From Candidatus Zambryskiibacteriota bacterium (GTDB taxonomy: Bacteria > Patescibacteriota > Minisyncoccia > Phycocordibacterales > DATDWN01): a stretch of 46,803 nt of DNA. Every line of letters begins with the position of its first letter. Within the stretch, counting starts at the first letter, position 1. The notes beneath the pieces are model-generated. The model saw only the letters and a list, made by a program, of their open reading frames with translations. It did not search any database and had not been told where the DNA came from. Of this stretch, positions 4,318-42,419 are shown one piece after another. The stretch spans positions 1-46,803 of the forward strand of contig JAHFOB010000007.1 of NCBI GenBank assembly GCA_023267045.1, in the 5' to 3' direction. A program made the position numbers and the translations under genes.

Positions 4318-4698
4318 TCATCTTTTTCTTCTTATATTACCCAAACTTTTTATTAAATCTTTTATTCGCGTTGCTCCTTTTCGGAAAAGTGTGTGGTATT
4401 TATTTTTCTTAGAAACTATAGTTCTCTCGGCTTCATCACGAACCACGTCTATAGCAGTATATAAATCCACTTCCTCGGCAACAGCATAAATCTGCTTGTT
4501 TCCTACTGTAACAATATTAACTTCCGCTCTAAATATTTCTCCAGACTTGTGATGTTTCGTCGTTCGACCTATTTCAACTTCACACAAAATATTTTCCTTA
4601 TTACCAAAAAACTTTTCGAGTGATGATATTTTCCTTGTAACATATTCGTCTATAGCTGGAGTAATGTCAAAATTTATAGATCGTAGTTTGATGTTCAT
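4318..4698 (-). CDS. hpf: Ribosome hibernation promoting factor / RaiA family
   Basis: MNIKLRSINFDITPAIDEYVTRKISSLEKFF, AEVNIVTVGNKQIYAVAEEVDLYTAIDVVRDEAERTI. Confidence 0.85.
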   Translation of the reverse strand: MNIKLRSINFDITPAIDEYVTRKISSLEKFFGNKENILCEVEIGRTTKHHKSGEIFRAEVNIVTVGNKQIYAVAEEVDLYTAIDVVRDEAERTIVSKKNKYHTLFRKGATRIKDLIKSLGNIRRKR

Positions 4699-4801
4699 CC
4701 CGTTAGAAATAGGAGATCTTATATTTAATAATAACTCCTGATATTAATGATTAAAGTTAACCTGACCGTGGTAACACTGAATCTCCGATATTTCTAACGG
4801 G
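4699..4801 (-). repeat. Palindromic element CCCGTTAGAAATA...TATTTCTAACGGG abutting the hpf start codon
   Basis: 13-nt perfect inverted repeat 4699-4711/4789-4801, extended by GGAGAT/ATCTCC (4712-4717/4781-4786). Confidence 0.85.
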
Positions 4802-4991
4802 ATTCATGAGCTAATTATATCACCCGCTAACTTAAAACTCCAAATAAATTGCATTCCTTCGTATTTTTGATATTATCTCTAAATGTGTTGAAGTAAATCA
4901 CTTTAACACAAACATTCCGGTGTAGTGAGAAGTGATGTTTTCACTTCGCAAGATTCGTGGCATCGACTGTTAATTAAATAAATTGTTGAAC

Positions 4992-27558: not shown

Positions 27559-28848
27559 TTACAAATAATTACGCAACCTGTTGATCTTGTCATGCTGTCT
27601 GATTTTTTCATGCGCCTTGGCCTCAATCTGTCTAATTCTCTCTCGAGTCACACCGAATTCCTTACCCACTTCTTCTAGTGTATGTGTTACCCCGTCAACC
27701 AAACCGTGCCTTAGCTCTAGAATTTTTCTTTCTTTTTCTGGTAAGTCATTTAATATTTCTTTTACCTGATCTGAAATAATTCGTCGTGATGCTTCTTGCT
27801 CTGGTGAAAGAATTTTGTCATCTGCCAAAAAGTCACCAAGTTTACTTTTACCATCGTCTTCTTCACCTATTGGACTTTCTAAAGACAGAGTGCTTTGATC
27901 TATTTTTTCGATTGTATAGATTTTATCAACGGTTAGATTCATTTCTGTAGCAATTTCTTCTGGTAGTGGATCACGACCAAGATCTTGTGAAAGTCGTCTG
28001 ACAACCTGCTTATATTTAGCGATAGTTTCTACCATATGCACAGGCACACGAATAGTACGTGATTGGTCAGCCAGTGCGCGAGTGATAGCTTGACGAATCC
28101 ACCATGTTGCGTAGGTTGAAAACTTATATCCTTTAGTCCAGTCAAATTTATCTACCGCTTTGAAAAGACCAAGGTTTCCTTCCTGGATAAGATCAAGGAG
28201 TGTTAAGTCGGCACTGCGATTTGCATACTTTTTAGCAATTGAAACAACCAAACGCAAGTTTGCTCGCGCCAAAAGATTTTTGGCTTCAATATCTCCGGCT
28301 TGAATACGACGGGCCAGTTCCTTTTCCATACTTCCGGAAATGAGTTGATATTGACCGATTTCTTTCAAATACATCTGGATTGAGTCGTATGATGACTCAC
28401 TTGCTCGTCCATATGTATATTTTTTACCGACCAAGTCTTCTGCGGATGGAGTCTCTAGTAATCCTCCACCCTCGAGCACGTCAATACCTCCAGTTCCAAG
28501 TTTTTCGTAAAGTTCATCCAAAAATAAAATATCTTCTTCGACATTTGGAAACTCTTTTAAGATCTCATCGTATGTAACATAACCACGCTCTTTTCCTTTG
28601 GCTAGAAGTTTTGCCATACCTTCTTGCTGTCTATCATGTTTTTTGGTTGGCTTTATCTGCTTTGATGATTTACCCCCAGATGAACCCGCGTAAAAAGTTT
28701 TTCCTTTCTTTTTGTGACGCAGTTTAGGCACTTTTATTTTTGCCTTTTTAGCTTTTTTTGTAGCTCTTTTCACCTTTTTTGTCGCTTTTTTGGCGGACTT
28801 TCGTGATTTGAGCTTATTCTTTTTTGATTTTGATTTACTTTTTTTCAT
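27559..28848 (-). CDS. rpoD: RNA polymerase primary sigma factor
   Basis: [60 protein letters not shown]; Lys-rich N-terminal extension. Confidence 0.96.
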
Positions 28849-28948
28849 CCCGTTAGAAGTACCAGTAAATTCTCTCTACTATGGTACAGAAATTAAATTA
28901 TTAATCACATATTCCCGTATTGAAACTTGGACTGAAACTTCTAACGGG
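28849..28948 (-). repeat. Palindromic element CCCGTTAGAAGT...ACTTCTAACGGG spanning dnaG stop to rpoD start
   Basis: 12-nt perfect inverted repeat 28849-28860/28937-28948; internal GTACCA/TGGTAC hairpin. Confidence 0.88.
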
Positions 28949-30686
28949 ATTCATAAATATTTTTGATTGCGTTCAGTTTTTTTGAAATATCCTGACACAT
29001 TTCTAAATATTTTAGAACATCTCCGCTATTTTTCGTCTGCTCTGCTTTTTGTAGATTAACCATTGCTTCGGAAAATTCTTTTTTCAAATGCTCCTCCTCG
29101 AGCCGAACCAAGAGCTCTGCCCAATCTTCTTTTACATTAGTTTTGTTATTATAGTATGCTTCTATCTCAAATAACAGAGATTCTTTTTCCTTCTCAAAAA
29201 ATGCCAAGAGGTCATCTGTCCTAGAACCCAGAACCTGCCTTACTTTCCCCTCAAACTCAACCATATCTACACCTGAGATAGGTGTTTTATTTGCCTTTTG
29301 CCAGAAAATGATACCTATAACCCTTTTTTCTATAGTATCAACTTTTTTTAAGATTGGTGAGCTAGTTTCTGCTTTTGAGTCAAATTTTGTACTTTTTGTC
29401 CCAAGTTTTTTCAAATCATCCCACAGAGCTTCTTCTTTTATAAAAGCTTTTTGAGCAATAATCTTTATAAAATGCGATTGTTCTATTGAACTGGGGATTT
29501 CTGCAACATAAGGCAGAACGTGTTTTTGAATTTCTCTTCCAAGTTCACGTGGAGCAAGATTTTGAGAAATCAGCGTATCTGTGTAAAAATCTATGATGTG
29601 TTTTGAATTTTTTAGAGACCTGACTAACTCATCGACATTATCTTTTGCCAAATCAGCGGGATCTTTACCGACAGGCATTTGAGCAATCTTCAGTTCCATA
29701 CCAAGCCTTAGAGCTATTTGGCTACTTCTGTCAGAAGCTCTAAACCCAGCTGTATCACCGTCATAGGCAACTATTATCCTGTTTGAAAATCTCTGAAGTT
29801 TTACCAGGTGATTTTCGGTCAAAGCTGTGCCGGACGAAGCTACAGTATTTGTAATTCCAGCTTGATGCATCATGACAAGATCCATTTGTCCTTCTACAAG
29901 TATTGAATAATCTTTCAATCTGATATCTTTTTTGGCTTTGTCTAATCCGAAAAGAATTTCTGATTTATTAAATAAAACTGTTTCTGGACTATTTAGATAC
30001 TTCGGAGCATTTACTTGCCCTGAGTAAGTCGAAGGGTCATCTGACACAAGTATTCTTCCAGAAAAACCAACGACTCTTCCAGAAGAATCATTTATCGGGA
30101 ACATTATTCGACCGCGAAACGTATCATAATGGGTCGAAGTTCCACCTTCTTTACGTTTAATTAAACCGACTTTTTCCATATCAGATATACTTACATCTTT
30201 TGAGTTTAGATACTCAAAAAGCTCTCTCCATTCTAGAGTAGAATAACCTATTCTGAATTCTTTTATAGTTTTTTCGGTAAGTCCTCTGGACGTCAAATAA
30301 TCCAGAGCTTGTTTGTTTTCTGATAATTTTTTCTCATAGAAAAATACTGCTTGTTCTAAAACAGAATGAAGTCTTTGTTTCTCTGTTTTTTCTGATTTGC
30401 TGTATGAGTCAAGATCCACTCCGGCCCGATCAGCCAAAATTTTCAATGCACCAACAAAATCAAGTTTCTCAAAATCCTGAACAAACGTGAAGATATCTCC
30501 TTTTGCGTGACAACCAAAACAATAGTAACTTCCACGATCTGGTGAGACGAAAAAGCTAGGCGTCTTCTCGTTATGAAAAGGACACCTGCCTTTATAGTTC
30601 GCTCCGGCTTTTTCTAGTTTTATGTACGAGCCAACTAGCGAAACGATATCTATTTTTGATTTTATTTGATCAACGGATGAGGACAT
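28941..30686 (-). CDS. dnaG: DNA primase
   Basis: CPFHNEKTPSFFVSPDRGSYYCFGC, VEGQMDLVMMHQAG, AYDGDTAGFRASDR. Confidence 0.96.
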   Translation of the reverse strand: MSSSVDQIKSKIDIVSLVGSYIKLEKAGANYKGRCPFHNEKTPSFFVSPDRGSYYCFGCHAKGDIFTFVQDFEKLDFVGALKILADRAGVDLDSYSKSEKTEKQRLHSVLEQAVFFYEKKLSENKQALDYLTSRGLTEKTIKEFRIGYSTLEWRELFEYLNSKDVSISDMEKVGLIKRKEGGTSTHYDTFRGRIMFPINDSSGRVVGFSGRILVSDDPSTYSGQVNAPKYLNSPETVLFNKSEILFGLDKAKKDIRLKDYSILVEGQMDLVMMHQAGITNTVASSGTALTENHLVKLQRFSNRIIVAYDGDTAGFRASDRSSQIALRLGMELKIAQMPVGKDPADLAKDNVDELVRSLKNSKHIIDFYTDTLISQNLAPRELGREIQKHVLPYVAEIPSSIEQSHFIKIIAQKAFIKEEALWDDLKKLGTKSTKFDSKAETSSPILKKVDTIEKRVIGIIFWQKANKTPISGVDMVEFEGKVRQVLGSRTDDLLAFFEKEKESLLFEIEAYYNNKTNVKEDWAELLVRLEEEHLKKEFSEAMVNLQKAEQTKNSGDVLKYLEMCQDISKKLNAIKNIYESR

Positions 30687-41987: not shown

Positions 41988-42419
41988 TCATGAGAATCTG
42001 AAACGACCTGTGGTACCGTAGTCTTTCTTGCCTTGGTTTGCTATATACTTTTTGATCATTTCCTCATTTAGGCCTACAGTCGATACGAAATATCCCACAC
42101 TCCAGATGCTGCCGTCTAGGTACATGTCACGTATGAATCTAAATCGTTTCTTCAGTATTGCACTTGATTCTGATTTGAGTCTTTGAACAACGGCAGCTAT
42201 GGAGAGGTTTGGTGGTATTTCGATTTGGAGATGAACATGGTCATCGTTTGTGTTAAAAGAGTGTATGTGGAGTGTGGGATATTTCTTAGTGGCATGATAC
42301 AAATATTTTCTTAATTCTTGCTTTGTGTATTCCTTTATATACTTTCTTCGATATCGAGTTCCCCAGACTATGTGGTATTCAATTTGATACTTTGAGTGGT
42401 TTAAGTTTCTGATTCTCAT
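41988..42419 (-). CDS. IS200/IS605 (Y1_Tnp/HUH) transposase TnpA
   Basis: YHIVWGTRYRRKY, HUH motif DDHVHLQI, RLKSESSAILKK, catalytic-Tyr region EEMIKKYIANQG. Confidence 0.92.
   Translation of the reverse strand: MRIRNLNHSKYQIEYHIVWGTRYRRKYIKEYTKQELRKYLYHATKKYPTLHIHSFNTNDDHVHLQIEIPPNLSIAAVVQRLKSESSAILKKRFRFIRDMYLDGSIWSVGYFVSTVGLNEEMIKKYIANQGKKDYGTTGRFRFS

Follow-up and report, generated by a model that had tools for sequence, protein, structure and literature searches.

Bacterial MITEs (Correia/CREE, ERIC and others) have been reviewed (PMC10969869), and the review does not mention start codons. Like these elements, the family described here is short and non-coding, has terminal inverted repeats and a target-site duplication, folds back into a hairpin and often lies just 5' of genes; unlike them, it targets the start codon itself, whose ATG opens the duplication. 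Rickettsia palindromic elements (RPEs) are described as in-frame insertions with a conserved peptide (PMC10969869). The present family resembles them in being made of palindromes of ~100-150 bp in tiny genomes, in leaving essential genes undestroyed and in having some copies in frame in coding sequence (L076, L089), but most of its copies spare the protein by duplicating the start, few lie inside ORFs, and the peptide frame is unconserved. We set an RPE assignment aside, as in-frame insertion with a conserved peptide was not found.

REPs and REPINs share with our family an inverted pair ~100 bp apart that forms a hairpin, and Y1 proteins of the RAYT type are often encoded in these genomes. The arms, CCCGTTAGAA, are however not palindromic REPs, there is no GTAG tag, and target duplications are present; a RAYT gene flanked by the same repeats was not found, and an arm pair lies within about 1 kb of only 1 of the 18 RAYT loci where the gene was found, so the REPIN assignment was also rejected. 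Palindromic elements derived from the IS200/IS605 family are hairpin-forming and non-coding too, and the DNA analysed here holds an IS200-like element. That family has no target-site duplication and two end hairpins, whereas the element here is one long foldback with duplications, which argues against it as the source class. Among the hallmarks of MITEs, inverted repeats, small size, target-site duplication and dispersed near-identical copies were all found. The literature on MITEs, palindromic repeats and start-codon insertions in CPR/Parcubacteria gave no relevant report, and none of start-codon targeting. The family looks like a mobile element that had not been described and that has a remarkably precise target; MITEs, RPEs and REPINs, the nearest known kinds, each share parts of it.

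A palindrome between two copies of the hpf start

The window, by which we mean the whole 46,803-nt stretch analysed (contig JAHFOB010000007.1 of a Candidatus Zambryskiibacteriota genome), carries on its minus strand hpf, which encodes the ribosome hibernation factor (4318..4698; PF02482, E = 2.7e-16). Directly 5' of the gene lies a 103-bp imperfect palindrome (4699..4801, minus strand), read from the sequence and 97% identical to a second copy, with an outer stem of CCCGTTAGAAAT and ATTTCTAACGGG and an inner stem of GGAGAT and ATCTCC. The preliminary description of this DNA had placed the element correctly, in sequence and in coordinates, as abutting the hpf ATG, and the inner pairing that it proposed is borne out by a predicted RNA fold of -34.9 kcal/mol (z = -4.9; 0 of 200 shuffles equally good). 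On the minus strand, the order is TATAAT-TAGCTC-ATGAAT-(CCCGTTAGAA...TTCTAACGGG, 103 bp)-ATGAACATC. The downstream ATGAA (4694..4698, minus strand) is the true hpf start, where ortholog N-termini align, and the gene reads ATGAAC from 4698. On the far side of the element, the other ATGAA of the duplication, followed by a T (4802..4807, minus strand), precedes CCCG and opens an ORF beginning MNPVR, and a -10-like TATAAT box (4814..4819, minus strand) stands 6 nt 5' of this upstream ATG.

The same architecture is found 5' of rpoD (27559..28848, minus strand; sigma-70 by profile search). Here the element (28849..28948) has the inner stem CAGT/ACTG and stands between an upstream ATGAA plus T (28949..28954) and the ATGAA of the rpoD start (28844..28848), all on the minus strand. 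The interiors of the hpf and rpoD elements do differ, as had been noted at first, but 'unrelated' goes too far, since they belong to two sub-families of one element. The stop codon TAG of dnaG comes from the arm of the rpoD element (AATATTTATGAATCCCGTTAG; window 28941-28961), and the insertion therefore set the 3' end of this upstream gene. Elsewhere in the window, the IS200-like Y1 transposase gene (41988-42419, minus strand) has CCCCG hairpins on both sides, and the upstream hairpin ends in GGCGGGG-ATGAATG.

Arm families and a covarying stem

In this 750-kb, 31-contig genome the arm TTCTAACGGG occurs 16 + 16 times on the two strands, the reversed pattern 0 + 1 times, and the arms form mostly inverted pairs ~90-105 bp apart. 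The element measures ~95-120 bp (96-121 bp with arms of 10-14 bp in the copies measured) and is without coding capacity, its short ORFs (4-40 codons) showing no conservation. The terminal inverted repeats read (Y)CCCGTTAGAA...TTCTAACGGG(R), with the variants CCCGTTAGAG and CCCGTACGAA; these arm families beyond CCCGTTAGAA were detected by a covariance model. In an alignment of 18 copies, the outer stem extends over 12-15 bp and the inner stem changes on both sides (GGAGAT/ATCTCC, GGAAAT/ATTTCC, GGTCGC/GCGACC and CAGT/ACTG). The same alignment contains 18 compensatory cells, compared with 6.2 in shuffles, and 88.6% of its cells are paired, a share that falls to 50% or less if the partners are shifted along each other. 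These compensatory changes could reflect a structural role beyond transposase recognition. The base preceding CCCG is a T that pairs with the A of ATG, a T/A pairing that largely follows from the search pattern, and the base before that T is a purine in 220 of 224 copies. Rfam gave nothing but tRNA at the gathering threshold in the window and a best E of 1.7 around the element; with no family match, a known RNA leader, riboswitch, intron or ribozyme was set aside.

Several loci depart from the simple form. L010 (1501-1598), similar in span to the long pairs, consists of two short palindromes (~45 bp) in tandem that have these same arms, and a further ~45-bp palindrome of this kind lies inside the coding frame of a tsaE-like gene (L022, 1465-1514). 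In three composite copies of one genome (L229, L236 and L237 in G106), an extra 35-45 bp, ending in GGACTTGT, separates the copied ATG from the CCCGTTAGAA arm. At L108 (ssb in G001) and L167 (a uvrD-like gene in G011), a hairpin ends at the start codon whose arms (about CCGGTAGTRAAAATGRCAT...ATGYCATTTTYACTACCGG) belong to a third family, unrelated to the others, which suggests that several element families may share the start-codon habit.

Evidence for mobility

The copy nearly identical to that at hpf (97%) lies in the same genome before an unrelated membrane protein gene (L001, G000:C1:17649-17751), and the flanks of the two are unrelated. With L194/L195 and L331/L346, this makes three pairs of near-identical copies (95-97%) at unrelated genes with unrelated flanks, and such pairs are present in genomes other than this one. 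We compared single regions around the copies with their orthologs and found empty sites in genus relatives at hpf, L13, secD and dnaJ (all or nearly all relatives) and at dedA. In G010, the corresponding position at hpf is occupied by an element from a different arm family. At dedA, the empty site of G007 reads TACAAT-AATCCTC-ATGGATTAT, and the occupied site here reads TACAAT-AGCCCTC-ATGGAT-(element)-ATGGATTAT. Genus relatives in turn have elements placed in this way at the starts of pyrG, pyrD and other genes. Both flanking copies equal the ancestral start even where it is not ATGAA; because relatives start with ATGGA at dedA and ATGTA at ssb, and both flanks here show these same bases, the repeat is a target duplication and is not borne by the element. 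Tandem insertions into the ATGAA of an earlier copy were found at L096 and L342.

The empty hpf and dedA starts of relatives mostly have a TATAAT-like box 5-8 nt 5' of the ATG, a promoter directly before the gene, i.e. they appear to be leaderless-type genes, and in the carrier the box stands directly before the upstream ATG copy. At an efp-like gene (L009/L063), the element is common to G000 and G003 and shows a compensatory stem change; this copy is probably an old insertion kept across species. We regard the family as palindromic mobile elements of Patescibacteria, non-autonomous and MITE-like, with a strong preference for translation starts (ATGNR), a reading to which we assign a probability of roughly 0.8.

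Preference for start codons

We searched 197 genomes of the order for exact CCCGTTAGAA-N75..100-TTCTAACGGG pairs, a pattern blind to ATG, and fetched and classified the pairs listed. Exact arm pairs were present in 41 of the 197 genomes, and the reversed control gave 0. Of 76 pairs, 51 directly abut an ATG whose ORF is 60 aa or longer or runs off the fetched stretch. The preliminary description had proposed a recurring element at start codons, to be abandoned if its distribution relative to starts were random, and this proposal holds. A simple preference for ATGAA-like 5-mers combined with avoidance of coding sequence is ruled out as the cause: in the window the preferred 5-mers occur 24 times at starts and 51 times at other intergenic sites, and such a preference with loss of coding insertions predicts 32% at starts (p = 4e-10). 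On named contigs, a set retrieved with an ATG-containing pattern, 123 of 131 ATG-abutting elements open real ORFs, compared with 23% of all ATGs in the window.

The long single-hairpin pairs of this genome abut the ATG of a substantial ORF on one side only, and the opposite side usually repeats the first bases of the gene: ATGAA at hpf, rpoD and others, ATGGAT at dedA, ATGTAT at ssb and ATGAAAT at L13. Exact target-site duplications of 4-6 bp (ATGAA, ATGGA, ATGAG, ATGCG, ATGA and so on) flank 164 of 223 start-type copies, with lengths of 5, 4 and 6 bp in 132, 23 and 9 cases; no duplication is recognisable in 37 of the 223, which counts against our explanation. At position +5, 210 of 224 targets have a purine, compared with 205 of 399 background starts. 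Where an exact-duplication copy has a pyrimidine at +5, the duplication is 4 bp in 11 of 11 cases.

Also counting against it, about one third of the ATG-blind pairs lie away from starts: in a prepilin leader (GGATTTAC; L087, L089), beside tRNAs (L077, L084, L097), inside an ORF (L076) or in intergenic DNA. Intergenic non-start copies carry duplications as well, e.g. GTTGA+C and ATTGA+T. In the prepilin genes (L087, 1501-1599; L089, 1501-1602), the same arms lie inside the leader, changing GFTLIE to GFTPLE...FLTGFTLIE with GGATTTAC repeated; as the second site is the one at which prepilin peptidase would cleave, such an insertion should leave the mature pilin as it was and would again be 'safe'. 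At the tRNA loci, tRNA-like sequences are found inside inverted CCCGTTAGAA arms ~105 bp apart. Starts internal to operons are also targets, e.g. L13, 6 nt 3' of the stop codon of the preceding gene.

The upstream ORF is a by-product of insertion

The preliminary description had taken the shared MNPVR ORF as a feature of a leader. Translation of ATGAA + T + CCCGTTAGA from the copied ATG yields MNPVR, and the ORF is a by-product that arises where the duplicated ATGAA meets TCCCGTTAGA. MNPVR is found in 84 of 164 exact-duplication copies, the others giving MDPVR, MSPVR or MRPVR, and the 4-bp duplications lead into another frame, giving MIPLE or MVPLE. The upstream ORF has 4-40 codons (median 16.5), close to the expectation for random stops; it passes the real ATG in 8 of 164 copies, and its frame relative to the gene varies. 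The suggested check for purifying selection gave no sign of it, as single mismatches between the two start copies affect the three ATG positions and the two positions that follow equally often, 11 times each. A regulatory uORF leader with a conserved start, frame and peptide was rejected on these results.

Genes and hosts carrying the element

We collected 224 unique start-type copies across Patescibacteria, before very different genes. The targets include ribosomal proteins L9, L13 and L24, SSB, SecD, SecG, DnaJ, FtsZ, MurG, PyrG, TopA, rpoD, tRNA synthetases, LepA, and pilus and membrane proteins, the names being read from N-termini except where Pfam was run. In this genome, L13, SSB, SecD, DnaJ, a UvrD-like helicase, a DedA-like and a prepilin-like protein and others are hit as well, and the element cannot be called a leader type of growth-control genes, as had been supposed from its presence at hpf and rpoD. 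Some targets recur in distant genomes (hpf 4 times, L9 3, SecG 3, TopA 2); two of the SecG copies share 95% identity and could go back to a single insertion passed on by descent.

The hosts on named contigs are Nomura-, Kaiser-, Zambryski-, Taylor-, Yanofsky-, Sung-, Jorgensen-, Doudna-, Campbell-, Vogel- and Kerfeldbacteria, Levyibacteriota and Saccharibacteria; the one Omnitrophica record among the matches may be a binning error. The distribution is patchy: TTCTAACGGGATGAA occurs in 17 of 287 genomes of a phylum-wide sample, with up to 15 copies in one. IMG/VR holds no start-type copy and only 2 arm pairs, and spread by viruses was set aside on this result. Shine-Dalgarno-like sites occur at 6 of 43 gene starts in the window, and -10-like boxes at Patescibacteria loci peak 6-7 nt before the ATG. 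The position of the box and the scarcity of these sites suggest that many genes here may be leaderless.

Discussion

We propose that a transposase acting in trans would make a staggered cut, recognise the folded or inverted ends and prefer the sequence of a start codon. The sequences show that insertion duplicates 4-6 bp (mostly 5) of the target, most often an ATGNR start, and that the protein stays as it was, since the gene keeps its own start in the downstream ATG; insertions that duplicate the whole ATG would survive for this reason. The gene would then be expressed from a transcript beginning near the upstream ATG and carrying a stable hairpin, whose base would include the A and U of the real AUG and should change the stability or translation of the mRNA. 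A duplication of 4-6 bp implies a staggered cut and fits a DDE-type transposase better than Y1/HUH enzymes, although a length that varies from 4 to 6 bp is unusual for a single DDE transposase and counts against our explanation. So does the result that the fetched loci contain no autonomous element or transposase with these ends, and no long inverted-arm pairs with duplications enclosing a transposase. Three other candidates were rejected. The ends of a DDE transposase on this genome's contig C18 are different (GCAATGTGGGTTAA), and IS1380-type DDE proteins (PF13701) are above cut-off in 0 of 197 genomes. Integron attC sites were considered for the CTAAC/GTTAG core-like words in the element, whose order, by inspection, is reversed relative to the order of core words known for attC.

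The most serious competitor to our explanation is that the bias towards starts comes from benefit: insertion would be wider, and copies between promoter and ATG would be retained for the sake of a 5' hairpin by which leaderless mRNAs are protected or tuned. This is possible, if somewhat doubtful. It agrees with the scarcity of Shine-Dalgarno-like sites, with a -10 box 5-8 nt before the ATG in 59 of 186 targets compared with 76 of 399 other starts (p = 0.001), with the same genes being hit repeatedly (hpf, secG, L9, topA) and with the efp copy kept in both genomes. Against it, stem mismatches to A/C and to G/T on the sense strand number 12 and 13, giving no sign of selection on the RNA strand, in a set restricted to copies whose arms match at 8 or more of 10 positions, which leaves this strand-bias test low in power; operon-internal starts are hit too, and a target preference is in any case required by the exact register, in which the duplication begins with the ATG. 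Transcription start sites alone are likewise insufficient, because of the operon-internal hit at L13 and the lack of RNA-strand bias in the stem mismatches. That a HUH (Y1) machinery moves the element, either as a REPIN by RAYT or as a derivative of the window's IS200-like element, we consider unlikely. Y1_Tnp is common in the order (115 of 197 genomes) and is weakly associated with the element (31 of 41 genomes with exact pairs, 84 of 156 without), and the window's own Y1 gene has CCCCG hairpins. Transposition by Y1 enzymes of the IS200/IS605 kind leaves no target duplication, whereas 164 copies here have one; the scarcity of arm pairs at RAYT loci argues in the same direction, and G013, with many copies, has no Y1_Tnp hit.

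Explanations at the RNA level fare worse. A regulatory leader, in which the hairpin and the MNPVR upstream ORF control translation of growth-control genes, would fit the position directly before the ATG, the stable covarying hairpin, the upstream ATG beside a -10 box and the independent presence of such elements at hpf in several genomes. We hold it to be very unlikely, as the peptide, frame and length of the ORF are unconserved, mismatches fall freely on its ATG, the targets are functionally broad, orthologs in relatives lack the element and Rfam gives no match. More improbable still is that the element is skipped or removed from the RNA, by ribosomes bypassing from AUG to AUG, by cleavage at the hairpin base or by splicing between the repeats. 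The matched AUG on both sides of the hairpin, the variable interior and the presence in essential genes would agree with such a process, but re-initiation at the second AUG suffices, and no known Rfam intron or ribozyme is present. Going beyond our main explanation, we put forward only tentatively, at rather less than even odds, that there is a class of mobile elements whose machinery homes to translation starts (ATGNR, with or without help from open promoters or bound ribosomes), spares the protein by duplicating the start codon and gives leaderless genes hairpin leaders across Patescibacteria, with several arm families (CCCGTTAGAA, CCCGTTAGAG, CCCGTACGAA, CCGGTAGTRAAAATG) appearing to use the same trick independently.

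For annotation, gene callers may add a spurious upstream MNPVR start at such loci. Finding the enzyme would give a start-codon-specific tool and a test of DNA-level recognition of translation starts. If our reading is true, insertion at the start codon together with its copying would be a 'safe site' strategy inside genes that suits tiny, gene-dense genomes, and the 5' ends of housekeeping mRNAs would have been rewritten across a large and mostly uncultured part of bacterial diversity.
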